Assembly: GCF_963378095.1 (NCBI RefSeq)
Contig: NZ_OY726397.1
Location: 620,001 to 684,000 of the forward strand
Direction: 5' to 3'
Origin: Mycolicibacterium sp. MU0053
GTDB taxonomy: Bacteria > Actinomycetota > Actinomycetes > Mycobacteriales > Mycobacteriaceae
DNA: 64,000 nucleotides
The notes beneath the pieces were generated by a model. The model was not told where the DNA came from. It searched no databases and saw only the letters and a list, made by a program, of their open reading frames with translations. This document shows positions 7,344-30,582 of the stretch, piece after piece (positions within the stretch are counted from its first letter, which is position 1; each line of letters starts with the position of its first letter). Position numbers and translations under genes: made by a program.

Positions 7344-7366
7344 GTTATCCGCTACGGTCTAAGCAA
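7344..7366 (-). promoter_or_regulatory. Weak copy of the shared TTAC/GTA promoter element before the TetR gene
   Basis: Read on the minus strand, bases just upstream of the TetR start contain ACCGTAGCGG followed by ATAACGA. This resembles the left half of the 23-nt element found at four other promoters of the cluster (about 12 of 23 positions match the 11980 copy). It lies immediately upstream of the start codon, where a self-repressing TetR would bind. It is the weakest of the copies. Confidence 0.3.
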
Positions 7367-7944
7367 TGGCGCAGGGCAGGGTCGTAGAGTCAGCGCGCCG
7401 GCGATATACAGGCCGGCGCGCCGATACCATGCTGCGGTTGACCGACGCCGCGATGGAAGTTCTGCGTGAGGTTGGCTTTCACGAGTTGACGCTGCAAATG
7501 GTCGGTGAGCGTGCCGGCATGACCCGGGCCACCGCGTACACCTACTTCGCGTCGAAGGACCACCTCGTTGCAGAGGTTTTTCGCCGGCGCATGGTGGCGA
7601 CAACCGTGTCCATCCCCGACTCGTCGGATGTCGTCGAACGGGTCCTGGCGACGCTTCGGCATATCGCTTTGATCGTCGCGGACGAACCCGAACTGGCCGA
7701 CGCGATCACGGGGGTCTTCAACAGCTCGGATCCCGAGATAGAAGCCATCCGCATCCAACTGTATGAGTACGTACACACAGTTACCGTCGCGGCGGTCGGT
7801 GACGACGGCGACGAGGAAACCGTGTCGATGCTGGAGATGGCCTACCTCGGCGCGATGATGCGAGCGGTGTTCGTACCGGGATTCAAGAAAACCGTGACCC
7901 AGGACGTCGAGAAGTTGGCGCGTCGCATCCTCGCAGCGGATTGA
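7366..7944 (+). CDS. TetR/AcrR family transcriptional regulator
   Basis: 192-aa TetR-type repressor. The N-terminal HTH (about residues 20-65) includes the recognition-helix run TLQMVGERAGMTRATAYTYFASKDHLVAEVF. The C-terminal ligand-binding domain is short and lacks a recognisable ligand motif. It stands between the mce operon and the catabolic cluster and converges on the aldehyde dehydrogenase gene, with 16 nt between stops. Since several cluster promoters share one putative operator, this is the best local candidate for the cluster regulator (inference). Start ATG 7366; no strong ribosome-binding site, so it may be leaderless. Confidence 0.85.
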   Translation: MAQGRVVESARRRYTGRRADTMLRLTDAAMEVLREVGFHELTLQMVGERAGMTRATAYTYFASKDHLVAEVFRRRMVATTVSIPDSSDVVERVLATLRHIALIVADEPELADAITGVFNSSDPEIEAIRIQLYEYVHTVTVAAVGDDGDEETVSMLEMAYLGAMMRAVFVPGFKKTVTQDVEKLARRILAAD

Positions 7945-7960
7945 CACTTGCGGGCGTTCC

Positions 7961-9445
7961 TCACCCGGGATGCCCGATGGTCTTGATCTCCAGATATTCC
8001 TTGAAGCCTTCGGCTCCGTTGCGCCGGCCGAGACCACTTTGCTTGGTACCGCCAAAGGGACTGGTGATACCGAAGTGGCTTCGGCCGTTGACCGTCACGT
8101 TACCGGTACGCAGCCGCCGGGCGATACAAAAGGCTCGTTCAGTGTCAACCCCGGTGACTTCGCCGGAGAGCCCGTAGATGGAGTTGTTGGCGATCGCGAC
8201 GGCCTCGTCGTCGGTGTCATACGGGATCACCGAGAGCACCGGGCCGAAGATTTCCTCTTGGGCCACTTGAGAATTCGGATCCACGTCGACGAGCAGTGTG
8301 GGCTGCGTGTAGTACCCGACCGGCAGGTGCTCCGGAACGCCGCCGCCGGTGACCAGCCGGGCACCGGAGTCGATTCCGCTCTGGATCAGCCCGAGCACCT
8401 TCTGCCGCTGGGCCTCGCTGATCTGCGGACCCTGCAGCACGCCCGGGTCCCAGGGGTCGCCGACGGCGGTGGCGGCCATGGCGGCCCGCAGGATCTCGAT
8501 GCCCTCGTCATAGCGGCTTCGGGGCAGCAGGATCCGGCTGGCCATGATGCAGGCCTGACCGGACATCACGCACGCGATCATGGCCGCCATCGGCAGGCAC
8601 TTCTCGAACTTCGCGTCGTCGAGCACGATGTGGGCGGACTTGCCGCCGAGTTCCATCATGGTGCGCTTGACGGTTGGCGCGGCCGCGGCCAAGATGGCCC
8701 GGCCGGTGGCCGTCGACCCGGTGAAGGTGATCATGTCGACCCGCGGGTCGGCTGAGAGCGCCGCGCCCACCTCGTTGGCGTTCGAGCTGACGACGTTGAA
8801 CACCCCGGCCGGGATGTCGGTCTCCTCGGCGACGATGCGCCCCAGCTCATTGCCCGACCACGGGGTCAGCTGCGCGGGTTTGAGTACGACGGTGTTGCCG
8901 GCCATCAGCGCCGGGACGGTCTCGGCGATGTTGAGGTAGAACGGCACGTTCCACGGGGTGATCGCGCCGACCACGCCGACCGGGTCGTAGGCGATGGAAC
9001 GCCGGGCGGTGCCCATCGGGGCCTTGTGGATGCCGGTGTCGACCAGGTACTCGAAATCCCGGCCGTGTTCGGCCCAGTGCCGGACCTCGTCGATGGGATC
9101 CTCGATCTGGCTGCCGGTCACGCTGACCGGACATCCCACCTCGGTGACCACGATGCGACGCAACCGCTCCTTGTTGCGCTCCAGCGCCCGATGCAGCTGC
9201 ATCAGGCAGTGGAAACGGAAGTCGACGTCGCGGGACCATTCGGTGGTGTCGAAGGCGCGCCGCGCCGCGGCGATGGCGTCGTCCATGTCGGCGACGGTGC
9301 CGTCGGCGGCCTGCCCGACCACCTGCTCGTTGGCCGGATGCACCACATCGAACAGCGCGCCGTCGGCAGTGTGCCGCAGTTCGCCGTCGACGAGCATGCG
9401 CGCTTCGCCGGCCAGAATGCCGGTCTCACCGGTGGTTTGGGTCAT
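7961..9445 (-). CDS. NAD(P)-dependent aldehyde dehydrogenase
   Basis: 494-aa ALDH superfamily enzyme oxidising an aldehyde to the acid. Visible landmarks: the GVVGAITPWNVPFYLN nucleotide-fold segment (about 157-172), FTGSTATGR (about 241-249), the general-base segment ELGGKS (about 265-270), the catalytic cysteine in SGQAC (about 295-299) and the EEIFGPVLSV loop (about 395-404). Length is normal for the family. It is the last gene of a leftward operon after the thiolase-like and amidohydrolase genes (1 nt from the latter). Substrate unknown; probably an aldehyde formed by the cluster's oxygenases or lyases. Confidence 0.9.
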   Translation of the reverse strand: MTQTTGETGILAGEARMLVDGELRHTADGALFDVVHPANEQVVGQAADGTVADMDDAIAAARRAFDTTEWSRDVDFRFHCLMQLHRALERNKERLRRIVVTEVGCPVSVTGSQIEDPIDEVRHWAEHGRDFEYLVDTGIHKAPMGTARRSIAYDPVGVVGAITPWNVPFYLNIAETVPALMAGNTVVLKPAQLTPWSGNELGRIVAEETDIPAGVFNVVSSNANEVGAALSADPRVDMITFTGSTATGRAILAAAAPTVKRTMMELGGKSAHIVLDDAKFEKCLPMAAMIACVMSGQACIMASRILLPRSRYDEGIEILRAAMAATAVGDPWDPGVLQGPQISEAQRQKVLGLIQSGIDSGARLVTGGGVPEHLPVGYYTQPTLLVDVDPNSQVAQEEIFGPVLSVIPYDTDDEAVAIANNSIYGLSGEVTGVDTERAFCIARRLRTGNVTVNGRSHFGITSPFGGTKQSGLGRRNGAEGFKEYLEIKTIGHPG

Positions 9446-9446
9446 C

Positions 9447-10694
9447 TCAGCTTCCGGGGGCGACGAGTTGGGGCGGGTGTACCGCGTCGGGGTCGGGGTT
9501 GGCGATCGGCAGGCCCATGAAGCGGCGGGCGTTGTCGCCCATGAAGTCGTAGGTCCGGCGGATGTCCATGCCTTCGGCGTAGCGCCAGAAGGCTTTCGGT
9601 TCGGCCAGTCCCTCCGGGTGCGGATAGTCCGAGCCGAACAGCACCTTGTCCCAGCCGACGGTGTTGACGACGTCGGCGACGCAGCCCTCCCAGAACGGGC
9701 TGACCCAGATGTTGCGGCGGAAGACGTCGTGCGGATGCTCCGGGAAGTTCTGCGGCATCTTCTTGACCAGCTCGTCGAAGTCGTTGAACAGCGGGAAGAT
9801 CCAGCTGCTGCCGTTCTCGACGCTGGCGATCCGCAACTTGGGGAAGCGGGTCAGGGTGCCGTGGCAGATCAGGCTCGTGAGCATGTCGGCGATCTCGCGG
9901 TGGCCGAGCACCATCCAGCGGAAGGCGCTCTGCGCCATGAAGTTCTGGGTGTGTGGCGGTTCCCAGCTGTTCACGTAGTCATCCAGTGGCGGGTAGCTGG
10001 CGTGCAGCACGATCGGCAGGCCCGCGGCTTCGACGTCGCGCCAGAACGGATCGAACTCCGGCAGTGCCGGTGAGCGCCAACCGTGCAAGCCGTTGACCGG
10101 ACCCGGCTTGATCAGCGCGACCTGGGCGCCGTGATCGAGGATGTAGGCCAGTTCGCGCTGGGCGGCGTCGACCTCGGAGAGGTTGATGATCGGTGTGGAG
10201 AACACCCGGTCCTCATAGCTGAACGACCAGTGTTCGACCATCCACTGGTTCAGGGCGTGGATGATCGCCAGCGTCAGCTGTGGGTCCTCGGCGCTGGAGT
10301 GTTCGACCAGGCTGGCCAGCGTCGGATAGTTGAGCGCCTCGACGACACCTTGCCGGTCGAGCTCTTTGACCCGATCGTCGGGATTGCGGGTCGCCGCGGG
10401 CGCCTCGATGGCCTTGCCCTGCATCTCGCGCAGGGTCAGGCCCTCGGTGTTCTTGCCGGCGAAGAACTTCTCGTGCGCCCCGGGCGCGGCCACCCTCTCG
10501 AAGGTGGGGTTGGGGATGAAGTCGGTGACCTTGCCATTGATGATGATCCGGGTCTGCTTGCCGATCTGGGCGTACTGGACCGCGTGGCGGTAGCGCTCCG
10601 GCAGGAACTTCGTCAGCGCCTCGGGGGTCTCGTACATGTGTTGGTCGGCATCGAAGATCGGAGCCGACCGAAACTGTTCGCTGGGGGTGCTCAT
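9447..10694 (-). CDS. Amidohydrolase-2 family metal-dependent hydrolase/decarboxylase
   Basis: 415-aa TIM-barrel protein of the amidohydrolase-2 family (the fold of ACMSD and gamma-resorcylate decarboxylase). The opening metal-ligand motif appears as IFDADQHMYE (about 14-23), a variant of the usual DxHxH. Later His (VLHASYPPLDD; LICHGTL) and Asp residues (VLFGSDYPHPEG, about 360-371) fit the remaining metal ligands. Members act on C-C or C-N bonds of ring-cleavage products. It sits between the thiolase-like gene (84 nt upstream) and the aldehyde dehydrogenase (1 nt downstream), pointing to a joint catabolic step. Substrate unassigned. Confidence 0.82.
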   Translation of the reverse strand: MSTPSEQFRSAPIFDADQHMYETPEALTKFLPERYRHAVQYAQIGKQTRIIINGKVTDFIPNPTFERVAAPGAHEKFFAGKNTEGLTLREMQGKAIEAPAATRNPDDRVKELDRQGVVEALNYPTLASLVEHSSAEDPQLTLAIIHALNQWMVEHWSFSYEDRVFSTPIINLSEVDAAQRELAYILDHGAQVALIKPGPVNGLHGWRSPALPEFDPFWRDVEAAGLPIVLHASYPPLDDYVNSWEPPHTQNFMAQSAFRWMVLGHREIADMLTSLICHGTLTRFPKLRIASVENGSSWIFPLFNDFDELVKKMPQNFPEHPHDVFRRNIWVSPFWEGCVADVVNTVGWDKVLFGSDYPHPEGLAEPKAFWRYAEGMDIRRTYDFMGDNARRFMGLPIANPDPDAVHPPQLVAPGS

Positions 10695-10712
10695 GAGCTC
10701 GCCTTCCCGCCG

Positions 10713-10770
10713 CGAGCAGACGCAAACTCACCCGAGATGCAGTGAAATTGGGCAAGTTTGTGTCTGCTCG
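10713..10770. repeat. Imperfect 21-nt inverted repeat between thiolase and amidohydrolase genes
   Basis: The left arm 10713-10733 (starting CGAGCAGACGCAAACT) and right arm 10750-10770 (ending AGTTTGTGTCTGCTCG) pair at 18 of 21 positions around a 16-nt loop. The structure fills most of the 84-nt gap between two leftward genes, so it could attenuate transcription or protect one mRNA segment in the operon. I saw no second copy in this window. Confidence 0.65.
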
Positions 10771-10778
10771 GCATGGTT

Positions 10779-11924
10779 TTAGGTGGTGAGGATGGTGGCG
10801 GCGGCGGTGCCCGGCGCGCCGTAGAGCTGGGTGAAACCGACCTTCGGGGAGCCGGGGACCTGCCGGTCGCCGGCCTCCCCGCGCAGCTGCCGCACGATCT
10901 CGTGGATCTGGCGCAGACCCGAGGCGCCGATCGGCTCGCCGTTGGCGATCAAACCGCCGTCGGTGTTGATCGGCATGGCGCCGCCGATCTCGGTGGCCCC
11001 GTCGGCGAGCAGCCGCTCCTGGTCGCCGTCGGCGCAGAAGCCGCACTCGGCCATGTGGATGATCTCCGCGCCGGCGTCGGTGTCCTGCAACTGGATGACG
11101 TCGACTTCCTCGGGGCCGATTCCGGCCTTCTCGAACGCGGCGCGCGCGGCGTACACGGTGGGCGCGACGTCCTCGTCCACCGGGGCGAAGGTGGTGTTGA
11201 CCTCGTAGGCCCCGTAGGTGCGGGTGCGGACCTCGACGGCCTTGAGGTAGACCGGCTTGTCGGTGTAGCGGTGCGCAATGTCGGCGCGGCACATCACGAC
11301 CGCCGCCGCACCCTCGTCGGGCGCGCAGAACATGTACTGCGTCAGGGGATAGTTCAGCATCGTCGAGTTGAGGATGTCTTCCTCGGAGATGGCCTTGCGG
11401 CGGAAGGCGTTCGGATTGAGCACGCCGTTGCGGAAGTTCTTGGCCGCGACCTTGGCCAGCGTCGCCTGGGAAACGCCGTGGGTGTGCAGGTAGCGGTTGG
11501 CCTTCATGCCGAAGAACTGGGTGGTGAGGTATTGGCCGTTCTCGGCGTACCAGCGCGGCATCCCGACCAGGGCGGGGTCCTCGGTGAAGGCGCCCTTGGG
11601 GTGCTTGTCGAGACCGACCGCGATACCGATGTCGTAGTCGCCGAGCCGGATACCGTCGGCGCAGGTCTTGGCCGCGCTGGCCGCCGTCGCGCAGGCGTTG
11701 AACACATTGGTGAACGGGATGCCGGTCAGGCCGACCATGCCGACGATCGCGTCCGGGTTGGCCACCGTCCAGCTGCCGCCGGCAGCGGCCTGGATGTCCG
11801 ACCATTGCACGCCGGCGTCGGCGACGGCCGCCAGGATGGCGTCGACTCCCATCTGCATGGCGGACTTGCCTTCGAATCGGCCGAAGGGGTGCAACCCCAC
11901 GCCGATGATGGCCACCTCGTTCAC
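10779..11924 (-). CDS. Thiolase-superfamily protein (SCP-x/Ltp-like thiolase or aldolase)
   Basis: 381-aa thiolase-fold protein of the SCP-x/lipid-transfer type. It keeps the N-terminal nucleophile loop NACATA (about 92-97) and the INTDGGLIANGEPIGASGLRQ stretch. The usual HDxF loop is replaced by QDTDAGAE, and the C-terminal CGGG-type motif by LYGAPGT. In the Ltp2 steroid side-chain aldolase, tyrosines replace thiolase cysteines, so this may be a retro-aldolase-type rather than a classical thiolase; that is inference. I chose GTG 11924, which has AGAAGGG about 7 nt upstream; GTG 11930 is the alternative. First gene of the leftward operon. Confidence 0.82.
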   Translation of the reverse strand: MNEVAIIGVGLHPFGRFEGKSAMQMGVDAILAAVADAGVQWSDIQAAAGGSWTVANPDAIVGMVGLTGIPFTNVFNACATAASAAKTCADGIRLGDYDIGIAVGLDKHPKGAFTEDPALVGMPRWYAENGQYLTTQFFGMKANRYLHTHGVSQATLAKVAAKNFRNGVLNPNAFRRKAISEEDILNSTMLNYPLTQYMFCAPDEGAAAVVMCRADIAHRYTDKPVYLKAVEVRTRTYGAYEVNTTFAPVDEDVAPTVYAARAAFEKAGIGPEEVDVIQLQDTDAGAEIIHMAECGFCADGDQERLLADGATEIGGAMPINTDGGLIANGEPIGASGLRQIHEIVRQLRGEAGDRQVPGSPKVGFTQLYGAPGTAAATILTT

Positions 11925-11979
11925 ATTCACCCCTTCTGAAGCGCCGCACCGCACCGTTGAGCCGCCCATTGGACCGCCC

Positions 11980-12002
11980 AACCGTAACACTTACAGTAAC
12001 TT
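11980..12002 (+). promoter_or_regulatory. Shared 23-nt promoter element, copy 1
   Basis: Copy with TTACAGTA core (11991-11998) preceded by ACCGTAACAC. Its reverse complement supplies TACTGT, a plausible mycobacterial -10 box for the leftward thiolase operon. It matches copy 2 (12033-12055, opposite strand) at 18 of 23 positions. It could be a repressor operator overlapping the promoter. Confidence 0.6.
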
Positions 12003-12032: not shown

Positions 12033-12055
12033 AAGATACTGTAACCTTTACCGTT
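12033..12055 (-). promoter_or_regulatory. Shared 23-nt promoter element, copy 2
   Basis: On the minus strand this reads ACGGTAAAGG, then TTACAGTA. On the plus strand it supplies TACTGT (12037-12042), a likely -10 for the rightward ALDH/P450 operon. With copy 1 it forms a face-to-face pair in the divergent promoter region. Confidence 0.6.
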
Positions 12056-16866: not shown

Positions 16867-16915
16867 GATTTCGGCGTGATCACGCACGGTGAGCGTGTGG
16901 GATCACGCCGAAATC
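16867..16915. repeat. Repeat family A, copy 1: bidirectional terminator-like palindrome
   Basis: 49-nt near-palindrome whose outer arms GATTTCGGCGTGATC and GATCACGCCGAAATC are perfectly complementary over 15 bp, with GGTGAGC in the centre. It lies between convergent genes: 5 nt after the CGNR stop, and overlapping the last two bases of the fadD stop. Further copies are at 46636 and 47571. It most likely acts as a two-way terminator. Confidence 0.85.
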
Positions 16916-20269: not shown

Positions 20270-20728
20270 ATGACCGAACCGCAAGCCACGGACCCGCGTG
20301 ACGAGATCGAGGCGATCCGCCGACTCAAGGCGCAATACTGCCGCTTCCTCGACACCCGCGATATCCCGGCCTGGCGTGGGCTTTTCGCCCCCGATGTCGT
20401 CGTCACCCTGGATCTGGCGGTGTCCACCGGGGGTGCCGATCCGCAGACGATGCCGCCGCTGGAAGGCCTCGAGGCGTTCGAACCGGTGGTGCTCGGTGGC
20501 ATCGCCGACGCCGCGACCGTGCACCACTGCCACACCCCCGAGATCGACCTGACCTCCGCGACCACCGCCACCGGCATCTGGGCCATGGCGGACCTGCTGG
20601 TGTGGGAAGGACGGGAACTGCACGGGGCCGGGCACTACCACGAGACTTATGAAAAGCGCGACGGCCGATGGCTGATCAAAACCCTGCACCTGACCCGGAC
20701 GATGCTCAAGTTCACGGAGTCGGCATGA
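20270..20728 (+). CDS. SnoaL-like (NTF2-fold) protein
   Basis: 152-aa nuclear-transport-factor-2-fold protein of the SnoaL_4 group: EIEAIRRLKAQYCRFLDTRDIPAWRGLFAPDVV at the N-terminus and HYHETYEKRDGRWLIKTLHLTRT near the end are the standard ends of the cone-shaped fold. Members are isomerases, hydrolases, dehydratases or small subunits; Asp/His pairs in the cavity (HHCHTPEID) suggest catalysis. AAGGAGG (20254-20260) precedes ATG 20270. First gene of an operon continuing with BVMO (ATGA overlap). Confidence 0.8.
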   Translation: MTEPQATDPRDEIEAIRRLKAQYCRFLDTRDIPAWRGLFAPDVVVTLDLAVSTGGADPQTMPPLEGLEAFEPVVLGGIADAATVHHCHTPEIDLTSATTATGIWAMADLLVWEGRELHGAGHYHETYEKRDGRWLIKTLHLTRTMLKFTESA

Positions 20729-22341
20729 GCGAGCAACGCTACGACGCGCTGGTCATCGGTGCCGGCTTCTCCGGGCTGTACATGCTGCACAGGCTGCGCG
20801 GCCTCGGACTCTCGGTGATCGCGGTGGAGGCCGGGGAAAACGTCGGCGGCACTTGGTTGTTCAACCGCTATCCTGGGGCGCGCTGCGACATCGAGAGCAT
20901 CGAGTACTCCTACAGCTTCTCCGAGGAGATCCAGCAGGAGTGGGTGTGGACCGAAACCATGCCCGCCCAAAAGGAGATCGAGGCCTACCTGAACTTCGTC
21001 GCCGACAGACTCGACCTGCGCGGCGACATCCGGATGGACACCCGGGTGACCGCGATGGCCTTCGACGCCGAGGACGCCGCGTGGCGGATCGACACCGACA
21101 CCGGCGCCCGTTTCGTCGCCTCCTACGTGGTGGCGGCCTCGGGCATCCTGTCGGTCCCGCTGGAACCGGACTACCCCGGCATGGACTCGTTCGACGGCGC
21201 GTCGCTGTACACCGCGAGTTGGCCCAAGGCCGGCTTCGACCTGACCGGTAAGCGCGTCGGGGTCATCGGCACCGGATCCACCGGCGTGCAACTGATCCCG
21301 ACCGTTGCTCGAGAGGCCGCGCACCTCACGGTGTTTCAGCGCTCGGCGGCCTACACCCTGCCCTGGGCGGTGCGCCGACTCGACGCCGGTGAACTCGATG
21401 CGCTCAAGGCGTCCTATCCCGAGATCCGCGCCGCGCAGCGCGAACATCCCGTCGGTGCGGCCCGGTTGAGCGCCTTCTCGCTGCTGCTCGACATGCTGGC
21501 CCGCCCGCCGATCAAGTCCGCGACCCGCGCGGAACAACTGCGCGCCATCGACGAGCACGGCGTCATGGGGGCGCTCAACTGGGGCGACGTGTTCTTCGAT
21601 ATCGAGGCCAATCAGATGGCCGCCCGGCTCTACGGCGAAGCGATCGCGCGCATCGTGCAGGATCCGACGACCGCGGCCGCGCTGGTACCCACCCACCCGT
21701 TCGGCTGCAAGCGCCCGATCATCGACCAGGGCTACTACGAGACCTTCAACCGCGACAACGTCACGCTGGTGGACCTGCGCTCCGACCCGATCCGGGCGTT
21801 GACGCCGACCGGGATCGCGACTGCGCGCGTTGAGCACGAACTCGACGTGATCATCTATGCCACCGGTTTCGACGCCATGACCGGAGCCTTGAGCCGGATC
21901 GACATCACCGGCCGCGACGGCGCCTCGTTGCGGCAGGTCTGGCAGGACGACGGCCCCACGTCGTATCTCGGGTTGGCGGTCGCGGGATTTCCCAACCTGT
22001 TCATCATCCAGGCGCCCGGCAGCCCGTCGGCCGCGACGAATTTCGTTGCGGCGCTGGAGCAACACGTCGAATGGATCGGCGAGTGCATCGACTACCTACG
22101 GGTCAACGGCCACCGCACGATCGAGGCCCGGCCGGAGGCGCAACGGGACTGGATCGAGCACACCACCTCGCTGGTGGAGCCGACGGTGCTGGCCCACCCG
22201 AGCTGCAACTCGTGGTACAACGGTGCGAATGTGCCCGGCAAGAGGCGCCGTTACATGGCCTACACCGCAGGGATTCCCGAGTACCGGCGGCGCTGCGACG
22301 AGATCGCCGCCACCGGCTATCCCGGCTTCGAACTGGCCTGA
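20725..22341 (+). CDS. Flavin-containing (Baeyer-Villiger-type) monooxygenase
   Basis: 538-aa class-B flavoprotein monooxygenase. Two Rossmann motifs bind FAD (GAGFSG, residues 12-17) and NADPH (GTGSTG, about 182-187). The BVMO motif GGTWLFNRYPGARCD (41-55) is intact. The family fingerprint reads F156-x-G158-x3-Y162-x3-WP, with Tyr where most BVMOs have His. The reaction would insert oxygen into a ketone to give an ester or lactone. The alpha/beta hydrolase encoded 4 nt downstream could then cleave it. ATG 20725 overlaps the SnoaL stop. Confidence 0.88.
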   Translation: MSEQRYDALVIGAGFSGLYMLHRLRGLGLSVIAVEAGENVGGTWLFNRYPGARCDIESIEYSYSFSEEIQQEWVWTETMPAQKEIEAYLNFVADRLDLRGDIRMDTRVTAMAFDAEDAAWRIDTDTGARFVASYVVAASGILSVPLEPDYPGMDSFDGASLYTASWPKAGFDLTGKRVGVIGTGSTGVQLIPTVAREAAHLTVFQRSAAYTLPWAVRRLDAGELDALKASYPEIRAAQREHPVGAARLSAFSLLLDMLARPPIKSATRAEQLRAIDEHGVMGALNWGDVFFDIEANQMAARLYGEAIARIVQDPTTAAALVPTHPFGCKRPIIDQGYYETFNRDNVTLVDLRSDPIRALTPTGIATARVEHELDVIIYATGFDAMTGALSRIDITGRDGASLRQVWQDDGPTSYLGLAVAGFPNLFIIQAPGSPSAATNFVAALEQHVEWIGECIDYLRVNGHRTIEARPEAQRDWIEHTTSLVEPTVLAHPSCNSWYNGANVPGKRRRYMAYTAGIPEYRRRCDEIAATGYPGFELA

Positions 22342-22345
22342 CCGC

Positions 22346-23455
22346 ATGCGACCCCAGGAACGCCTCACGACCATCGTCCGGGAACTCGCGCGCGTGCTGC
22401 CCCGATCGGTGGCGGTGCTTTCGGACGCCGAGGGCCCCTCGACGCTCTCGCCGCGGGGGCTGCGCCAACTCGGCGAGGTCGCCTTGGATGAACTCGTGGT
22501 CACCGGGATGACGCTGACCGCGGCGCCGCCGGGCGTGCCGGCCGGGGTGTCCAGCTATGCGGCAACCGCCGCGGAACTGACCGCGCTCGGCCGGGCGGAT
22601 TCCTACCTGAAGCCAAATCCGTTGCTGGTGAGCGCGATCAGGCGTCGGCTGGCCGGACGATTCGCGTTCGAGGAACTGAGCTATGACCACGACCCGCGGC
22701 TGCCGCAGTGCCTGAGCCACATTGGCGGGTCCGCGACCGCGGTGTGCCATCTGGTGCGCCACCGCGGTGGTCCGCGGCCCTGGCTGGTGTGGGTGCACGG
22801 TGCCGGGCAGGGCGGGCTGTCGGACTTCGCGGTCGCGCGGGTCGGCCGGATCCATCGCGAGCTCGGCTACAACGTCGCATTGCCCGTTCAACCCGGTCAT
22901 GGCAGCCGTCGGCACCGGTGGCCGACCTACCCCGACACCGATCCGGTGGCCAATGTCGCGGGCATGATGCGCACGGTCTCCGAGGTTCGCGCGTTGATCC
23001 GGTGGCTCCAGCCGCAGGCCACCACGATCGCGCTGGCCGGGCTGTCGCTGGGCAGCGGGGTCGCCGCGCTGGTGGCGGGCCTGGAGGAGGTGGACGGCGT
23101 CGCGCTGTACACGCCGATCCTGGGCCTCAACGCGATGATCGCCAACCATCTGCACCGCTGGGGCGGCGCGGCCGACGAGGTCGGCACGGTACTGGGGTCG
23201 CCGGCGGTCACGGAGCTGACCGCGGTGATCGATCCGCTGACGGCCGACCCGCTGCCGCCGCCGCAGCGGCGCTTGATCGTCGGTGCCTGGCATGACCAGA
23301 TGGCGATGCGAGCGCCCGCGTTGGCGATGCACGAACGCTGGGGCGGCGAATTATATTGGCACGACGGCGGTCACGTCGGGCACCTGTTCTCCGGGAAGGT
23401 GCAGCGAGTGACCGAACGGTTCCTGCGCGCAGTGGCCGCGGGTGAGTCACGGTGA
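22346..23455 (+). CDS. Alpha/beta hydrolase, probable ester/lactone hydrolase
   Basis: 369-aa alpha/beta hydrolase with oxyanion segment WVHGAGQGG (about 149-157), nucleophile elbow GLSLGS (about 232-237, Ser in the middle) and a C-terminal DGGHVGHLF likely to supply the catalytic His. The first ~110 residues form an additional helical domain. It directly follows the BVMO gene (4 nt), the classical arrangement for hydrolysing the ester or lactone that a BVMO makes. The start was set at ATG 22346, just after the BVMO stop. Confidence 0.82.
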   Translation: MRPQERLTTIVRELARVLPRSVAVLSDAEGPSTLSPRGLRQLGEVALDELVVTGMTLTAAPPGVPAGVSSYAATAAELTALGRADSYLKPNPLLVSAIRRRLAGRFAFEELSYDHDPRLPQCLSHIGGSATAVCHLVRHRGGPRPWLVWVHGAGQGGLSDFAVARVGRIHRELGYNVALPVQPGHGSRRHRWPTYPDTDPVANVAGMMRTVSEVRALIRWLQPQATTIALAGLSLGSGVAALVAGLEEVDGVALYTPILGLNAMIANHLHRWGGAADEVGTVLGSPAVTELTAVIDPLTADPLPPPQRRLIVGAWHDQMAMRAPALAMHERWGGELYWHDGGHVGHLFSGKVQRVTERFLRAVAAGESR

Positions 23456-23465
23456 GGGTGATCGC

Positions 23466-23837
23466 ATGAGGACCGCGCGCGAGGTGGTGGAGCTCTACAA
23501 CCTGGAACTGTGGAACAACGCCCGGTTCGAGTTGGCCGACGAGATCATCGCCGACACCATGGTGCGCCACGAGGTCGGCGCCTCCCGCATCCTGACCCGG
23601 GCCGAGGCGCGCCAACGCGTCGAGGACACCTGGGCCATGTTCGACAACCTCACCTTCGTGCTGAACACCGTGATCGCCAGCGACGACGGCGAGCATGTCT
23701 CGATCGTGTACGACTCCACGCTGACCAATAAGGACGGGTCGACGATCGAGATCGCCAGCATCGAGGTGTTCAAGGTGGTCGAGGGGCGGATCACCGATGT
23801 GTGGAACTGTGGCTACGGACAAGGAGTGTGGGCATGA
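23466..23837 (+). CDS. SnoaL-like polyketide-cyclase-family protein
   Basis: 123-aa NTF2-fold protein (MRTAREVVELYNLELWNNARFELADEIIADTMVRHE... through ITDVWNCGYGQGVWA), a small SnoaL/ketosteroid-isomerase-like fold different from the one at 20270. ATG 23466 follows a GAGGGTGATCGC spacer; GTG 23442 is a longer alternative overlapping the hydrolase end. It overlaps the next gene by 4 nt (ATGA). Probably an isomerase, hydratase or accessory subunit in the same pathway. Confidence 0.75.
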   Translation: MRTAREVVELYNLELWNNARFELADEIIADTMVRHEVGASRILTRAEARQRVEDTWAMFDNLTFVLNTVIASDDGEHVSIVYDSTLTNKDGSTIEIASIEVFKVVEGRITDVWNCGYGQGVWA

Positions 23838-24877
23838 CCGAACGCGTGCTGGACGAACTGGGTTACTACCTGCTGGCCGGCGCCGGCGGCGAGGGGCCGG
23901 CCACCCTGATGGACGAGGCCCGCCAGGGTGAGGAGATGGGTTTCGGGACGGCATTCATCTCGGAGCGGTGGAACGTCAAGGAGGCGTCCTCGCTGACCGG
24001 TGCCGCGTGCGCGGTGACCACCCGGATGCAGATCGCCACCGCCGCCACCAACCACAACACCCGTCATCCGCTGATCACCGGGTCGTGGGCGACCACCATG
24101 CACCGGCTGTCGCGGGGTCGCTTCACGTTGGGCCTCGGGCGCGGCATCGCGGCGATGTACAACGCCTTCGGGGTGCCGGCGGTGACCACCGCGCAGCTGG
24201 AGGACTTCGCCCAGGTGATGCGCCGGCTCTGGCACGGCGAGCTGATCTTCAACCACGACGGACCGATCGGGAAGTATCCGGTGCTGTTCCTGGACCCCGA
24301 CTTCGACGAGGACATCCGGCTGGCCTTGGTGGCGTTCGGCCCGCAGACGCTCGCGCTCGGCGGCCGGGAGTTCGACGACGTCATCCTGCACACCTATTTC
24401 ACGCCGGAGACCCTGCAGCGCTGCGTCAAGACGGTCAAGGACGCCGCCGAACAGGCCGGCCGCGACCCGGACAGCGTCAAGGTGTGGTCCTGCTTCGCCA
24501 CCGTCGGTGACCACCTGCCCGAGGAACTGCGGCTGAAGAAGACCGTCGCCCGGCTGGCGACCTACCTGCAGGGTTACGGGGATCTGCTGGTGCAGACCAA
24601 CGGTTGGGATCCGGCTGTGCTGGCACGATTCCGCGCCGATTCGGTGGTGACCTCGATTCCCGGCGGCATCGACCACAAGGCCAGCGCCGAGCAGATTGAA
24701 CACATCGCGACGTTGCTTCCCGACGAGTGGCTCGAGCCCGCGGCCACCGGCAGCGCCCGCCAATGCGTCGACCGGATCCGCCAGGAGTTCGACTACGGCG
24801 CCGACGCCCTGATCATGCACGGTGCCACACCGGAGGAACTCGCCCCGGTGGTGGCCGAGTACCGCGCCACCGGGTAA
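23834..24877 (+). CDS. LLM-class (F420-dependent) oxidoreductase, TIGR03857-like
   Basis: 347-aa bacterial-luciferase-like TIM-barrel oxidoreductase. Landmarks are GFGTAFISERWNVKEASSLTGAACAVTTR (about 36-64), HPLITGSWATTMHRLSRGRFTLGLGRG (about 76-102) and a C-terminal segment closing the barrel (DYGADALIMHGATPEEL). In mycobacteria these enzymes mostly use F420 to reduce or oxidise C=C, C=O or alcohols. It is the last gene of the five-gene operon that begins at 20270, and ATG 23834 overlaps the SnoaL stop. Confidence 0.85.
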   Translation: MTERVLDELGYYLLAGAGGEGPATLMDEARQGEEMGFGTAFISERWNVKEASSLTGAACAVTTRMQIATAATNHNTRHPLITGSWATTMHRLSRGRFTLGLGRGIAAMYNAFGVPAVTTAQLEDFAQVMRRLWHGELIFNHDGPIGKYPVLFLDPDFDEDIRLALVAFGPQTLALGGREFDDVILHTYFTPETLQRCVKTVKDAAEQAGRDPDSVKVWSCFATVGDHLPEELRLKKTVARLATYLQGYGDLLVQTNGWDPAVLARFRADSVVTSIPGGIDHKASAEQIEHIATLLPDEWLEPAATGSARQCVDRIRQEFDYGADALIMHGATPEELAPVVAEYRATG

Positions 24878-24996: not shown

Positions 24997-25788
24997 ATGT
25001 CCCCACCCACGATGTTCCACCGGCTCAGCGCCGAGTTCGTCGGCACGTTCTGGCTGGTGCTCGGTGGTTGCGGCAGCGCCGTGTTCGCCGCCAAGTTCAT
25101 GTCCGACGACATCTCCGTCGGCATCGGATTCCTGGGGGTGGCACTGGCGTTCGGGCTCACGGTACTCACCGGGGTGTACGCCTTCGGCACGATCTCGGGT
25201 GGGCACTTCAATCCCGCGGTCACCCTCGGCGCCGCGCTCGCCGGCCGGGTCGAATGGAAAGCGGTTCCCGGCTATTGGATTGTGCAGGTGATCGGCGGTC
25301 TGGTCGGCGGTCTCGTCATCTACCTGATCGCGTCGGGCCGGGAGGGCTTCGATCCGGTGGGCAACATGGCTGCCAACGGTTACGGCGACAACTCGCCGGG
25401 TGGCTACTCGTTGGTCGCGGTGCTCATCGCCGAGGTCGTGCTCACCGCGATCTTCCTGCTGGTGATCCTCGGCTCCACCGACGATCGCGCCCCGAAAGGG
25501 TTCGCCGGCCTGTCGATCGGTTTGTCACTGACCCTGATTCACCTGATCTCCATTCCGATCTCCAACACCTCGGTCAACCCGGCCCGCAGTACGGGCGTGG
25601 CGTTCTTCAACGCCGACGGCGCACCCGGTCAGCTCTGGGTGTTCTGGCTCGCCCCGCTGGTGGGCGCCGCCGTCGCCGGAATCGCCTACCCGTACCTCTT
25701 CGGCCGCGCCGAGAAGCTCGCGGACCGGCCGGTGCGCGATGATGCGCTCGAAGCGGCTAAGCCCCAAACTGATACGACGCGGCGGTGA
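24997..25788 (+). CDS. aqpZ: Aquaporin Z-type water channel
   Basis: 263-aa major intrinsic protein with six membrane segments and two NPA boxes (HFNPAVT about 69-75; TSVNPARST about 189-197). The selectivity-filter residues expected for AqpZ are visible: Phe in ALAFGLTV, His in [13 protein letters not shown], Thr in NTS and Arg in NPARS. This predicts a narrow water-selective pore, not a glycerol facilitator. GAAGGAG (24985-24991) lies 5 nt before ATG 24997. Its 3' end overlaps the convergent thioesterase-like gene by 32 nt. The link to the catabolic genes is unclear. Confidence 0.93.
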
Positions 25789-26608
25789 CGAGCCGATTGC
25801 CGTTGCCCTCGTCATAGAGCAGCACCCGCGCCAGTAGCGCGGACTGCCCGGCGCTGGCCTCGGCCTCGGCGCGAAACGGTCCGACCTTGCCCCGAGCCAT
25901 GAACATCACATGGGAGGACACGGCGGCAAGGCGGTCCGTGCCGGCCAGGGCGCCGGCGGCGGCGCGGGCCGCGGTCTCCAGAATCACGAACTGCGGGCCG
26001 ATGTGCAGCGCGGCGTCCGGGGACGCGACCTCCACCGCCAGCTCGGGCAGACCCCAATGGCCGTCCGGGCGACGGGCACCGCCGAACACCTGCCACAGCG
26101 GCGGCAGGTCTGGGGAGTCGACGACCACGATCGGGTCCACCGGCATCCTCGCCAAACCCGGTGGCGGGGTGCCGATGCTGATGCCCTGCCCCTCGGTCAC
26201 GGCCAACACCCGCTCGGGCCGGTCGGCGTCGACGAGCATCGATCTGCTGTAACCCAGCTGGCGACCCTGCTTCAGCGTCTCACCACGCACCTCGAAGCGG
26301 GTGACGTCGCATCCGGGATCGAGAACCTGGCAGGAATGCACGACGGGGTTGGGGACGGCCTTGAGGTCCGACATGCCGCCGCCCTCGGGCGAGGCGATGC
26401 CGAGCACGGCGAGCAACAGTCCGCCGGTGGCGTCGCGCATGTCGCGGCGGACCGCGACGGTGTTGTCGGTGGGCCCCAGATCCATGGTGTCGTAGGTACG
26501 ACCGATGTAGCGGTAGCTGAGCAAACCGCCCCAACGCGAGCGTAATTCGGCCGCGTAGGCCGCCGGATCATCGGTCAGGTCGCGAATGTCTTTCGGCATG
26601 TCGGTCAC
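25757..26608 (-). CDS. Double-hotdog, acyl-CoA thioesterase-like protein
   Basis: 283-aa protein with two hotdog-like halves. The first contains [27 protein letters not shown] (about 52-78). The second is clearer: [67 protein letters not shown] (about 180-245), the PaaI/MaoC-type fold with a long central helix. It may be a thioesterase, hydratase or acyl-CoA-binding protein. GTG 26608 overlaps the stop of the lipocalin-like gene; ATG 26599 is an alternative. Last gene of the leftward carboxyltransferase operon. Confidence 0.68.
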
Positions 26609-26997
26609 CGCCTCCAGATCAGGGTGCTGTGGGTGGCGACGCCGTCATCGCCGGTCATGCCGGCCGACAGCGTCAGCACGTCGCCCTCGATCCGATAGTG
26701 CCGCAGCTGCGGCCGGGCCAGCAGTTCGGGCATCGTGGACATGACGACGTCGTGGCGGACCGTGGCTGCCGGTACGTCCAGCTGGAATCTGCCGCCGTAG
26801 GCGAGGTACTCGGCGATCTCCACGTCATGGCCGGCGGGATCCGGCGCCAACTGTGCCGACATCCAGCCGTCGGCGGTGTAGAGGATCAGCCCCCGCGGGT
26901 GCCGGCCCAGCGGGCGACGGAGCCCGCCGTCGTCATCGCGTGCGGTGAACGATTCCAGCTGCCAACCGCCGTGAATGGCGTGGTGCGATAGGGACAT
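26605..26997 (-). CDS. Lipocalin-like domain protein
   Basis: 130-aa small beta-barrel protein with the bacterial lipocalin-like pattern: GGWQLESFTARDDDGG.RRPLGRHPRGLILYTADGWMSAQL at the start and HYRIEGDVLTLSAGM near the end. No signal peptide, so cytoplasmic. Proteins of this group are found in hydroxylated-lipid or aromatic catabolic clusters, probably binding or isomerising an intermediate. The start is ATG 26997, 26 nt after the carboxyltransferase stop. Confidence 0.72.
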   Translation of the reverse strand: MSLSHHAIHGGWQLESFTARDDDGGLRRPLGRHPRGLILYTADGWMSAQLAPDPAGHDVEIAEYLAYGGRFQLDVPAATVRHDVVMSTMPELLARPQLRHYRIEGDVLTLSAGMTGDDGVATHSTLIWRR

Positions 26998-27023
26998 TGG
27001 ATCGTCGGCCTCCGGTCGGTTTG

Positions 27024-28547
27024 TCAAGGCAGGATCGCGGTGCGCGTGACCGGTGCGGCCGCGATCTGTCGGCGGTGCAGCCCCCGCTGCAGCGCACCGA
27101 GCAATGCGGTGCGGGTTTCGCGGGGGTCGATGAGTTCGTCGAAGCCGAGGTTCTCGGCCGAGTTGAACGAGGCCTGCAATTCGGCGTCGTGCAGTTGGTC
27201 GGACAGCGCGGCGTCCGTCTTGGCGGCCCGGGTAAGAGCGCCGGCGCTCATTGCGCCCATCGTCGCCCCGGGATAGCCGAACGTCGCGACCTGACCGTCG
27301 AATACCAACAGCGACATCACCATCGAGCCGAACCCATACGCCTTGCGCAGGGTCAGGTGCAGCTTGACGGTGGTTGCCGTGGTCTGCGCGGTGAACATCC
27401 GTGCGCCGCTGAGTAATACGCCATCGCGCTCGGACCGGCTGCCGGGCAGCATGCCAGGATTGTCGGCCAGGAAGATGATCGGGAGGTGGAACGCGTCGGC
27501 GACCATGATGAAGTGAGTGGCCTTGTCGGCGGCTTCGGCATCGATCGAGCCCGCCATCACCTGCGGTTGATTCGCCACCACCGCAACGGGATGCCCGCCC
27601 AGATGTGCCAGCGCGCACACGATTCCGCGGCCGAAGCCCGGCTGCACCTCGAACCAGTCCGGGTCGTCGAAGACCGCGTCGAGCACCGAGCGCATGTCGT
27701 AGACGCGGCGGTTGTCGCGGGGAACGATCTCGAGCAACTCCGGGGTGGTCCGCGGGGCGGTGTCGTCGCCCGTCGGCCGGGACGGGGGATAGGACCAGGC
27801 GCTGGACGGGAAATAGGACAGGTACCGCCGAATGGCGTCCAGCGCCGAGGCGTCGTCGTCGACGAGGTTGTGGACCACGCCGCTGGGCAGCGCCACCTCA
27901 GGACCGCCGAGGTCCTCCTTGGAGATCGCTTCGCCGGTGGCCTCCTTGACCACCGGCGGGCCCGCGGTGAAGATCGCGCCGTGCCGGCTCATGATCCGGA
28001 AGTCGCAGACCGGGGCGACGAGGGCGCCGTGGCCGGCCGAGGGGCCCAGCACGGCTGCCGCGGTCGGGACCAGGCCCGAGCATTGGGCCTGGGCCAGCAG
28101 GTCCGTCGGTGATCTGCCGCCGTGCTTGCCGGGCCGGAAACCGGCGCCCTCCAGCAGCATCACCAACGGAATCCTGTTGCGCAGCGCCAACTCCGCGATC
28201 CGATGACGCTTGGAGTTGCTGCCCGCGCCGATGGTGCCGGCCACCGTGGTGAAGTCTTCGGCGCCGACCATGATCGGGGCGCCATTGACCTCCCCCGACC
28301 CGACGACGATGCCGTCGGCGGCGACCTCGCCGCCCGCCAGCGTCCCGAGTTCCTGAAAGCTGCCCGGGTCCAGCAGGTGCCGGATGCGCGTGCGGGCATC
28401 GAGCTTGCCCGCGCCGCGGTGCGCGGCGAGCCGGTCGGGTCCGCCCATCGCGCGGGAGCGCTCGCGGCGCCGCTCGAGGTCGGCCAGCGTTTCGTCCCAG
28501 GCCGCCGAGTTCGCGGGCGTCGCCGGGGCACGCCGTTTTTCGGTCAT
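27024..28547 (-). CDS. accD: Acyl-CoA carboxylase carboxyltransferase (beta) subunit
   Basis: 507-aa carboxyltransferase of the AccD/PccB type. It carries the two crotonase-like halves: an N-terminal part (GGEVAADGIVVGSGEVNGAPIMVGAEDFTTVAGTIGAGSNSKRHRIAELALRNRIPLVMLLEGAG, about 75-140) and a C-terminal part (FLADNPGMLPGSRSERDGVLLSGARMF; GYPGATMGAMSAGA). It should transfer CO2 from biotin to an acyl- or enoyl-CoA. No biotin carboxylase/BCCP gene is in the window, so the alpha partner must come from elsewhere. GGAGGAGA precedes ATG 28547. First gene of a leftward three-gene operon. Confidence 0.87.
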   Translation of the reverse strand: MTEKRRAPATPANSAAWDETLADLERRRERSRAMGGPDRLAAHRGAGKLDARTRIRHLLDPGSFQELGTLAGGEVAADGIVVGSGEVNGAPIMVGAEDFTTVAGTIGAGSNSKRHRIAELALRNRIPLVMLLEGAGFRPGKHGGRSPTDLLAQAQCSGLVPTAAAVLGPSAGHGALVAPVCDFRIMSRHGAIFTAGPPVVKEATGEAISKEDLGGPEVALPSGVVHNLVDDDASALDAIRRYLSYFPSSAWSYPPSRPTGDDTAPRTTPELLEIVPRDNRRVYDMRSVLDAVFDDPDWFEVQPGFGRGIVCALAHLGGHPVAVVANQPQVMAGSIDAEAADKATHFIMVADAFHLPIIFLADNPGMLPGSRSERDGVLLSGARMFTAQTTATTVKLHLTLRKAYGFGSMVMSLLVFDGQVATFGYPGATMGAMSAGALTRAAKTDAALSDQLHDAELQASFNSAENLGFDELIDPRETRTALLGALQRGLHRRQIAAAPVTRTAILP

Positions 28548-28580: not shown

Positions 28581-28603
28581 TACCGAATGACTTACTGTAG
28601 CGT
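28581..28603 (+). promoter_or_regulatory. Shared 23-nt promoter element, copy 4
   Basis: TTACTGTA (28592-28599) preceded by ACCGAATGAC, matching copy 1 at 16 of 23 positions. TACTGT (28593-28598) lies 13 nt before the rightward start at 28612, so that mRNA would be nearly leaderless. The reverse strand gives TACAGT for the leftward carboxyltransferase operon. Confidence 0.6.
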
Positions 28604-28611
28604 CCCCGACC

Positions 28612-29667
28612 ATGCCGGGGCGCCTGAAGATCGACCGCGGAATCCCCAGCCAACTCGACCGCGTAGCCGATGTCGCACGCGCACATGAGCAGGCTGGCTA
28701 CGACGGCTGCTGGACCGGCGAGATCAACCACGACCCGTTCCTGCCGTTGACGCTGGCCGCCGAGCACACCACCTCGCTCGAGTTGGGCACCAGCATTGCC
28801 GTCGCGTTCGCGCGCAACCCGATGACCGTCGCCAACGTGGGCTGGGATCTGCAGACCTATTCCCGCGGCCGGTTCATCCTCGGGCTGGGCGCCCAGGTGC
28901 AGGCCCACATCGAGAAGCGGTTCGGCATGCCGTGGAGTCGACCGGTCGCGCGGATGGCGGAATTCGTTGCGGCGCTGCACGCCATCTGGTCGTGCTGGCA
29001 CACCGGGGAGCGACTCAGCTTCGAGGGCGAGTTCTACACGCACAAGCTGATGACGCCGATGTTCACCCCCGAGCCGTCGCAGCATCCGATCCCCAAGGTG
29101 TTCATCGCCGCCGTCGGCGCCGCGATGACGGAATTGACCGGGGCTGTCGCCGACGGTCTGTTGGTGCATGCCTTCACCACCCGCCGGTACCTCGAGGAGA
29201 TCACCGAACCGGCGCTGACCCGCGGCCTGCAGCGGAGCGGCAGGAGCCGCTCCGAGTTCGAGGTGTCCAGCCCCGTCTTCGTCGTCACCGGCCGCGACGA
29301 CGCCGAAATGACGGCGGCCGCATCGGCATTCCGCAAGCAGATCGCGTTCTACGGGTCCACGCCGGCCTACTGGAAGGTGCTGGACCTGCACGGCTGGGGG
29401 GACCTGCAGCCCGAACTGCGGCGACTCTCGCTGGCCGGGCAGTGGGACGCGATGGCCGACGTCGTCGACGACGAGGTGCTCAGCGCGTTCGCCGTGGTCG
29501 CGCCGATCGACTCGGTCGGCGCGGTGTTGGCGCAGCGCTGCAGCGGTGTGATCGACCGGGTGCTGCCGGGATTTCCGGCCGGCACCCCGGAGCCGGTGAT
29601 CGCGGCGGTTCTCGACGAGGTGCGCGCAACCTGTCAGCGCACACCCGTTGCCCAGCACGGTGATTGA
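28612..29667 (+). CDS. LLM-class (F420-dependent) oxidoreductase, TIGR03617-like
   Basis: 351-aa luciferase-like oxidoreductase. The run AHEQAGYDGCWTGEINHDPFLPLTLAAEHTTSLELGTSIAVAFARNPMTVA (about 24-74) and GRFILGLGAQVQAHIEKRFGMPWSRPVARM (about 86-115) are typical of the TIGR03617 F420 group. Start ATG 28612 has no ribosome-binding site and lies 13 nt past a probable -10 box, so it is probably a leaderless or very short-leader message. It heads an operon with the SDR 10 nt downstream; the two may act on an alcohol/ketone pair. Confidence 0.85.
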   Translation: MPGRLKIDRGIPSQLDRVADVARAHEQAGYDGCWTGEINHDPFLPLTLAAEHTTSLELGTSIAVAFARNPMTVANVGWDLQTYSRGRFILGLGAQVQAHIEKRFGMPWSRPVARMAEFVAALHAIWSCWHTGERLSFEGEFYTHKLMTPMFTPEPSQHPIPKVFIAAVGAAMTELTGAVADGLLVHAFTTRRYLEEITEPALTRGLQRSGRSRSEFEVSSPVFVVTGRDDAEMTAAASAFRKQIAFYGSTPAYWKVLDLHGWGDLQPELRRLSLAGQWDAMADVVDDEVLSAFAVVAPIDSVGAVLAQRCSGVIDRVLPGFPAGTPEPVIAAVLDEVRATCQRTPVAQHGD

Positions 29668-29677
29668 GGAGCGCGCA

Positions 29678-30541
29678 GTGGATGCAGTTCGTGGTAGGGC
29701 CATCGTCGTCACCGGCGCGGCCCGCGGCATCGGGTTCGCCACCGCCCGGGCCCTGCTGGAGCGCGGCGCCCGGGTGATCATCGGCGACCGCGATGTCCCG
29801 GCGTTGGAAACGGCGGTGACCGCGTTGGCCGACGCGGGCCGGGTTTTCGGGCATCCGCTGGACGTCAGCGATGTTGAATCGTTCACCGGATTCCTGGACC
29901 GGGCCCGTGCCGATGCGGGTGGAGCGATCGACGTCCTGATCAACAACGCCGGGGTGATGCCGGTCGGGCCGTTCCTGGAGCAGTCGGAGCAGGCCATGCG
30001 CGCCGCGATCGAGGTGAACTTCTACGGCGTGCTCAACGGTTGCCGGTTGGTGTTGCCCGAGATGGCGGCCCGCGGCCACGGCCACATCATCAACATCGCC
30101 TCGCTGGCCGGCGTGGTCGCGGTGCCCGGGCAGGTGGTCTACGCGGGCACCAAGTTTGCGGTGGTGGGCCTCTCCACGGCACTGGCCGACGAGTTCGCGT
30201 CGCGGGGAGTCCAGGTCAGCGTGGTGATGCCGCCGTTCACCCGGACCGAGTTGATCGCCGGCACCAAGGCCACCGGCGCCAGCCGGCCCGTCGAGCCCGC
30301 GGTGATCGCGGCCGCGATCGTCCGAACCTTGAGCAAACCGAAAACCCATGTGGCCGTGCCCTATCCGATGCGTTTCGTCTCACCGATTCTGGCGATGCTC
30401 GGGCCCCGGAGTCGACGACGGCTGCACGCGGCGATGGGATCGGACCGGCTGTTCCTGGACTTCGACGAGAAGTCCCGGCGCTCCTACGCCCGGCGCGCGG
30501 AGTCGGCCACCGGGATGGTTTCCGGTGGCAGCGAATCCTAG
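29678..30541 (+). CDS. Short-chain dehydrogenase/reductase (SDR)
   Basis: 287-aa classical SDR: cofactor loop TGAARGIG (about 12-19), NNAGVMPVG (about 89-97), catalytic Ser in NIASLAG and the Y-x3-K motif VYAGTKFA (about 155-162). The C-terminus has an extra ~40 residues, partly hydrophobic (YPMRFVSPILAML) and basic, as in membrane-associated steroid/acylglycerol SDRs. GTG 29678 was chosen because GAGGAG (29666-29671) lies 6 nt upstream. It follows the LLM gene by 10 nt. Confidence 0.85.
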   Translation: MDAVRGRAIVVTGAARGIGFATARALLERGARVIIGDRDVPALETAVTALADAGRVFGHPLDVSDVESFTGFLDRARADAGGAIDVLINNAGVMPVGPFLEQSEQAMRAAIEVNFYGVLNGCRLVLPEMAARGHGHIINIASLAGVVAVPGQVVYAGTKFAVVGLSTALADEFASRGVQVSVVMPPFTRTELIAGTKATGASRPVEPAVIAAAIVRTLSKPKTHVAVPYPMRFVSPILAMLGPRSRRRLHAAMGSDRLFLDFDEKSRRSYARRAESATGMVSGGSES

Positions 30542-30559
30542 TGCGGCTGCCGTCTCCCC

Positions 30560-30582
30560 TACTGAAAGTCTTACCGCAACTG
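30560..30582 (+). promoter_or_regulatory. Shared 23-nt promoter element, divergent copy 5
   Basis: TTACCGCA (30571-30578) preceded by ACTGAAAGTC; about 15 of 23 positions match copy 1. It lies between the SDR stop and the P450 start (30642), so the P450 may have its own promoter in the same regulon. The core departs from TTAC(A/T)GTA, so this copy is less certain. Confidence 0.4.

Follow-up and report, generated by a model that had tools for sequence, protein, structure and literature searches.

KstR (Rv3574/MSMEG_6042) is described as a TetR-family repressor of a large set of lipid or steroid catabolic genes in mycobacteria; its palindromic operator occurs in many promoters, its own included (PMC1995591). 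KstR2 (Rv3557c) has a local regulon, with three operators in divergent gaps and 15 genes proposed (PMC3068626), and the autoregulated mycobacterial TetR protein BkaR (Rv2506) binds a palindrome as a dimer and controls neighbouring catabolic operons (PMC3920632). Here we report a repeated 19-bp inverted repeat, consensus TACNGTAA-NNN-TTACNGTA, in a catabolic gene cluster of Mycolicibacterium sp. MU0053. The stretch analysed (the window) comprises 64,000 nucleotides, bases 620001-684000 of a 5.45-Mb genome assembled as one contig. An earlier note on the window had proposed that one cis element marks the promoters of the whole cluster; it does, and the set also extends to the left of the window. 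From sequence comparison we consider it very likely that a TetR_C_1-type repressor, whose gene is at genome position 598149, has the element as its operator, a reading that includes release of the repressor by a metabolite and a regulon of about 37 genes.

The proposed regulon would resemble that of KstR in having a TetR-type candidate repressor, a large catabolic gene set and a palindrome in its own and other promoters, binding being inferred here. The operators differ. The 14-bp KstR core is TnnAACnnGTTnnA, whereas the element here is TACNGTAAnnnTTACNGTA. Within 578-652 kb of the genome the stricter KstR form GAACNNGTTC occurs only at 612971 and 613367, neither of them at a site, and the looser form AACNNGTT gives 17 matches, none at the nine sites described below, which are thus not KstR operators. 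The KstR2 operator, AnCAAGnnCTTGnT, is also unlike the element; its core has one match in the same interval, at 622254, inside an insert of mce-type genes and away from the sites, which do not belong to the KstR2 set. The BkaR core, GTTAnTnnnnAnTAAC, is again unlike the element and is absent from the 164 kb scanned. The nine sites are thus not explained by the operators of any of the three regulators.

KstR3 of Mycolicibacterium neoaurum (Mn_4965) is described as a TetR-type negative regulator of a sterol-related operon; it lies in an operon with atf1-chsH4-chsE6, and four genes are up on its knockout (PMC10398937). It is set apart here by gene context, and in the main text on KstR3 the word "motif" is absent. 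Mce3R is described as carrying two TetR domains in one polypeptide and using nonpalindromic 25-bp sites (PMC11667970), whereas the protein encoded at 598149 (hereafter the 598149 TetR) has 260 residues and one TetR_N domain, and its site is palindromic. Mycobacterial TetR motifs are given as logos in PMC4482099, and the element may match one of them. Searches on the wording of the motif returned only unrelated papers. The suggestion that the regulon is undescribed agrees with our finding no account of it in the openly licensed literature, subscription papers and preprints being outside the scope.

Candidate operators and their conservation

The arms of the element are each formed by a TACNGTA box, itself nearly palindromic, with 12 bp between the two box centres. 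Matches were scored over the 14 fixed positions of the pattern TACNGTAANNNTTACNGTA. As this pattern was drawn from the window copies themselves, binomial values calculated with it are post hoc. Five places in the window match at 12/14 or better, whereas 40 Markov-simulated windows contained none. Allowing up to two mismatches, nine places were found in the whole genome, six of them within 52 kb (599-651 kb), and the reversed-pattern control gave one. Allowing three, there were 18 places, 12 of them at 578-651 kb; because the reversed-pattern control was higher here (62), only the position of these matches was used and not their total count. Among the 12, three overlap stronger sites with a shift of 12 bp, and another, at 615249, is intragenic and scores only 4.7 bits.

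An independent matrix was built from 35 sites of four other genomes of the genus (G082, G020, G034, and G065). When 164 kb of the MU0053 genome were scanned with this matrix, nine sites of at least 14 bits were detected, all intergenic and all at 578-651 kb (Table 1). Simulated sequence of equal length gave 0.1 such sites per run, with a top single score of 17.5 bits. The earlier note had asked for a matrix scan of the genome and had named hits at hundreds of unrelated promoters as a refutation; in the 164 kb scanned, the matches are instead concentrated in the cluster. As the nine sites span 578-651 kb, the regulon would reach about 42 kb to the left of the window. Four of the nine lie there, and thus the note had seen about half of the set. 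Its copies at 11980, 12033 (opposite strand, with the core at 12037), 20215, 28581 and 30560 are found by both the pattern and the matrix, and for the first two a count by eye gives 18 identical positions out of 23. The copy at 30560, which had been called weaker, is a good one (Table 1), and the putative copy at 7344 is not a site: its score is -48 bits, and nowhere in genome 627000-627419 is -3 bits exceeded. Placement in divergent gaps is seen for 11980/12037, 20215 and 28581, which lie between operons of opposite strand, but not for 30560, which stands in a co-directional gap between a short-chain dehydrogenase/reductase (SDR) gene and a P450 gene.

The mycobacterial -10 form is TANNNT, and the element might be only a -10 hexamer shared by promoters in both directions. 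Each TACNGT does fit TANNNT on both strands, as the earlier note had pointed out, and at seven of the nine sites such a hexamer is preceded, at a distance of 16-19 bp, by a match of at least 4/6 to TTGACA (counted with no control). This composition explains neither rarity nor clustering: the 5.45-Mb genome holds only nine places at up to two mismatches, and six of these fall within 52 kb, so that the element is no generic -10 motif. The paired 19-bp symmetry is conserved, and the distance to the predicted start codons varies from 13 to 217 bp in the MU0053 genome. We therefore consider the -10 explanation very improbable as a full account. Because each TACNGT also fits TANNNT, several of the candidate operators probably overlap promoters, and they may overlap the -10 boxes.

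At several promoters a degenerate third box lies 12 bp further on. In 41 sites from six genomes the flank at this offset scored a mean of 2.05 of 6, compared with 1.15-1.60 at 21 other offsets; scores of 4 or more were reached by 18% of the flanks and by about 1.9% of background positions. These flank scores lend modest support to an optional third box, which could admit a second dimer.

Conservation was studied in 98 genomes of the genus, in five islands compared directly (G012, G082, G020, G034, and G065), and in named loci, of which the best 80 of 288 were taken, all titled Mycobacterium, Mycolicibacterium, Mycolicibacter or Mycobacteriaceae. All nine MU0053 sites pair one-to-one with sites of G012, with 124 of 126 core bases identical (14/14 at 11980); the 30-bp flanks are identical at 8-27 of 30 positions in an ungapped comparison, which underestimates their identity. 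In every island except G082 the thiolase start has a site no more than 500 bp upstream; sites also lie close to the start of the aldehyde dehydrogenase (ALDH) ortholog in all five (at least 11/14), before the Rieske ortholog in all five, and between the carboxyltransferase and luciferase-like monooxygenase (LLM) genes in all four islands that cover them.

In the named loci genes were tested for a site of at least 14 bits within 350 bp upstream. Such sites precede the orthologs of the 598149 TetR gene (77/80), the enoyl-CoA hydratase operons at 602226 (75/76) and 596247 (70/71), and the SDR gene (50/68). In contrast, none was found upstream of four operon-internal genes and the 597261 gene (0/71, 0/69, 0/72, 0/72, and 0/69), and thus the sites stand at the starts of the putatively controlled operons and not inside them. 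Three genes had few orthologs in these loci (588858, 0/2; thiolase, 1/2; the P450 at 650642, 2/2). Reversed-sequence controls gave 0 or 1, except for 7/72 with one gene, and the 1.56 Mb of named loci held 135 matches at 12/14 or better versus none for the reversed pattern.

Assignment of a candidate regulator

The 598149 TetR gene lies 21 kb to the left of the window and is transcribed away from the 599148 site. In addition to the 77 named loci, a palindromic site of at least 11/14 is present at all 30 TetR loci examined (the best 30 of the matches, MU0053 included), as expected of an autoregulated protein. Orthologs at E <1e-100 were found in 73 of the 98 genomes; the mean number of motif copies (up to two mismatches) is 7.4 in these, compared with 0.88 in the 25 genomes lacking the ortholog; the reversed-pattern controls are equal in the two groups (4.3 versus 4.6). 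Environmental species such as M. vaccae and M. austroafricanum carry the ortholog. Across 15 chosen sequences, with overall identities as low as 41%, there is no change in the recognition region HLxVGVTSIYWYFRKK. Outside the genus, G174 has a 43% identical TetR with a 24.8-bit site upstream. Of two TetRs in G117, one (65% identical) has a site of 29.4 bits on its downstream side, at a distance of about 1.3 kb, and the other (59%) has none, and G262 (41%) has a 14.8-bit match downstream and only 8.8 bits upstream.

The predicted structure of the protein is all-helical (mean predicted local distance difference test score 77.6) and matches TetR structures, with a TetR_N helix-turn-helix and a TetR-type ligand domain. 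Its closest relatives of solved structure are the tetracycline repressors TetR of classes A, B, and D (59.5 bits to class A), which share the TetR_N and TetR_C_1 domains; over the 50 Foldseek rows listed, template modelling scores by query were 0.53-0.60 at 20-26% identity. The tetO operator of tetracycline repressors is unlike the element, and no resistance gene was seen in the neighbourhood examined around the 598149 TetR. Among the 120 relatives listed of 1392, names (some of them incomplete) do not go beyond "TetR/AcrR family" or "transcriptional regulator", and NCBIfam gave no family at E <=1e-40.

The earlier note had also proposed a single regulator, perhaps the TetR encoded at window position 7366. 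A TetR-type regulon is indeed the best reading, but the 7366 protein is not its regulator. Although it is a TetR encoded within the cluster, its gene sits at the end of a 14-kb insert (613.7-627.96 kb) having 63.7% GC versus 67.8-67.9% in the flanks. The insert is missing from G012, where the flanking genes lie side by side, yet G012 keeps all nine sites. The closest match in the 97 other genomes is only 48% identical, mean motif counts do not track the protein (5.76 where a 7366-like protein is present, 5.73 where it is absent), and its own promoter has no site. The 598149 TetR passes the tests that the 7366 TetR fails, and we rejected the latter, giving it almost no chance of being the regulator. 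A plausible but wrong assignment is thereby corrected, and the window alone could not have exposed the error.

A GntR/FCD regulator encoded at genome 588111, inside the cluster, was also considered and rejected by co-occurrence. Of the 25 genomes without the 598149 TetR, 14 have a strong match to this GntR (E <=1e-80), and their motif copies number 0-2. Conversely, G045 has the 598149 TetR and ten copies, but there the GntR is split into two partial matches. We find it scarcely credible as the regulator of these sites.

Several observations weigh against assignment to the 598149 TetR. In G070 (73% complete) the TetR is accompanied by no site at up to two mismatches, and G075 has six sites and no such TetR, its reversed control being 9. 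Three of the 80 named TetR loci lack a 14-bit site, and outside the genus a strong site lies upstream of the TetR in only one of the four loci scanned. The weakest of the nine MU0053 sites, 578375 and 597091, score 18.5 and 14.7 bits, the latter below the maximum of simulated sequence, and the genomes used to train the matrix share ancestry with MU0053. Among the four islands tested, only G012 keeps a site of the 30560 type before the P450; in G082, G020, and G034 this P450 comes after LLM or SDR genes and has no site of its own. G054, which lacks the 598149 TetR, keeps a 19.7-bit site before the ortholog of an unlinked P450 considered below (one of three such loci). Since the TetR and the cluster are co-inherited, co-occurrence alone cannot separate a site bound by the protein from one that travels with the genes. 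Binding and control of expression by this protein are predicted from sequence comparison.

A further point of this kind comes from three islands (G020, G034, and G065), which carry a second TetR close to perfect 14/14 sites (Table 1). This paralog lies about 1.3 kb from such a site in the window-homologous part of the cluster, and might control the window-side operons, leaving the 598149 TetR only its own neighbourhood. However, no comparable paralog is listed for MU0053 or G012, where the next matches are 28% and 27% identical, and the window-side sites of these two genomes are nonetheless among the best. Four genomes in which the best match is a relative of 45-47% identity (G050, G055, G088, and G092) have only 0-2 motif copies. 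Such a division of labour seems improbable to us; where both TetRs are present, they may share sites.

The data are best accommodated by a model in which a dimer of the 598149 TetR would bind the 19-bp inverted repeat and shut its own promoter and those of about 11 other transcription units. A pathway metabolite, probably a CoA thioester or a ring-oxidised intermediate, would release the repressor. On three-box operators two dimers could be accommodated. We infer from these comparisons an autoregulated repressor of about 37 genes and a new regulon that is KstR/KstR2-like in kind. More tentatively, and with rather more doubt than confidence, we suggest that a further large TetR regulon of the KstR kind (about 37 genes here), dedicated to an unrecognised polycyclic or isoprenoid substrate, is present in mycobacteria, many slow growers among them. 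Its two- and three-box operators 12 bp apart would let one or two dimers bind and so grade repression, and in some species a paralogous second repressor would share the operators. The assignment ties a widely conserved mycobacterial TetR to a precise candidate operator and to a degradation gene set of about 70 kb. The candidate operator offers a ready reporter for finding the substrate, and the regulon should help in interpreting the catabolic genes of environmental and slow-growing mycobacteria.

Genes of the proposed regulon

The nine sites would serve about 12 transcription units with some 37 genes at 578-652 kb, of which the window holds 19; operons were taken from gene spacing (Table 1). 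Note that gene starts come from a simple gene finder and may be off. The enzymes encoded include acyl-CoA ligases, enoyl-CoA hydratases, acyl-CoA dehydrogenases, a thiolase, amidohydrolases, and ALDHs, together with P450s, a KshA-type Rieske oxygenase, a flavoprotein like the Baeyer-Villiger monooxygenases (BVMO), LLM oxidoreductases, and a carboxyltransferase. This set points to a pathway in which ring oxidation and beta-oxidation break down a hydrophobic alicyclic compound, and the substrate is probably of this type. The best relatives of the Rieske protein in the PDB are 3-ketosteroid 9alpha-hydroxylases (116 bits), and the cluster encodes PRK07798 ligases. No steroid equivalog was found at its cut-off among the cluster proteins run against NCBIfam, and the M. 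smegmatis steroid transcriptome, in the parts used here, does not settle the substrate (PMC4881515).

Table 1 Positions of candidate operators, predicted operons and regulators. Bits are from the matrix built on other genomes; fractions are matches to the 14-position pattern. ORF, open reading frame.
Feature	Window position	Genome position	Strand	Score	Context and basis
Candidate operator		578375			
Candidate operator		597091			
Candidate operator		599148			
Candidate operator		602077			
Candidate operator	11980-11998	631980		13/14, 25.7 bits	Upstream of thiolase operon (minus strand)
Candidate operator	12037-12055	632037		13/14, 25.7 bits	Upstream of ALDH-P450 operon (plus strand)
Candidate operator	20215-20233 (20215-20245, 31 bp, with third TACNGTA-like box)	640215		12/14, 25.8 bits	Between Rieske and SnoaL-BVMO operons
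Candidate operator	28581-28599	648581		12/14, 23.0 bits	Between carboxyltransferase and LLM-SDR operons
Candidate operator	30560-30578 (30560-30590 with third box)	650560		12/14, 21.5 bits	Upstream of P450, co-directional gap
Thiolase, Amidohydro_2 protein, ALDH	7961-11951		-		Probable operon under 11980 site; Pfam, layout
ALDH (start may be 12132), P450	12054-14833		+		Probable operon under 12037 site; Pfam, layout
Rieske oxygenase (KshA_C), isochorismatase-family protein, acyl-CoA synthetase (PRK07798)	16914-20186		-		Probable operon under 20215 site; Pfam, NCBIfam
SnoaL-like protein, BVMO-like flavoprotein, two further ORFs, luciferase-like monooxygenase	20270-24877		+		Probable operon under 20215 site; Pfam, layout
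Carboxyltransferase (start may be 28613), lipocalin-like protein, one further ORF	25757-28547		-		Probable operon under 28581 site; Pfam, layout
F420-dependent LLM oxidoreductase (TIGR03617), SDR	28612-30541		+		Under 28581 site; Pfam, NCBIfam
P450	30642-31880		+		Under 30560 site; NCBIfam P450 families, none over cut-off
TetR_C_1-type regulator, 260 aa		598149-598931 (contig C1)	-		PF00440 (TetR_N) and PF02909 (TetR_C_1)
TetR proposed by the earlier note	7366-7944		+		Probably local to mce insert
Duplicated ALDH pieces	~7966-8165 (second piece)	613.75-613.88 kb and 627.97-628.17 kb			Borders of mce insert
Second TetR paralog		G020 1725978; G034 4441644; G065 1791595 (positions in those genomes)			49-56% identical to 598149 TetR

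Neighbouring genes and unlinked sites

The 14-kb insert holds mce-type genes. It is bordered by duplicated pieces of an ALDH gene end, 56 and 81 bp long and 90-95% identical, which suggests how the insert may have entered. The usual order of an mce operon has the YrbE-type (MlaE) genes before the mce-type (MlaD) genes. In the apparent mce operon here (window 1-7202; genome 617980-627202) the order is the reverse, mce-type genes preceding a YrbE-type gene; this operon has eight genes, of which four were run against Pfam.

Another TetR, of the TetR_C_31 type, is encoded beside the cluster at window 32965-33540, and its ortholog is also beside the cluster in G012; no match (at least 40% identity, E <=1e-25) was found in the stretches of the other four islands, which may end short of it. 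A PucR-like gene lies at genome 611219. Between two of the candidate operators, at genome 600114-601730, is a 538-residue gene with no Pfam match at E <=1e-4 that is only 45% identical in G012, whereas identity is 87% and 91% for the two flanking genes.

Three unlinked sites of 18.0-25.2 bits were detected in stretches picked for holding pattern matches. One at genome 2141131 (18.5 bits) is far from the cluster, and the two ORFs tested nearby had no Pfam match at E <=0.001. Another, at genome 3656068 (18.0 bits), also far from the cluster, lies between genes for an enoyl-CoA hydratase and an acyl-CoA thioesterase. The strongest (25.2 bits; genome 1531367-1531385) is 48 bp upstream of an unlinked P450 gene (genome 1530120); of 30 loci with an ortholog of this gene, 18 have a best site scoring 14 bits or more. 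It may belong to a distant member of the regulon or to another regulator.

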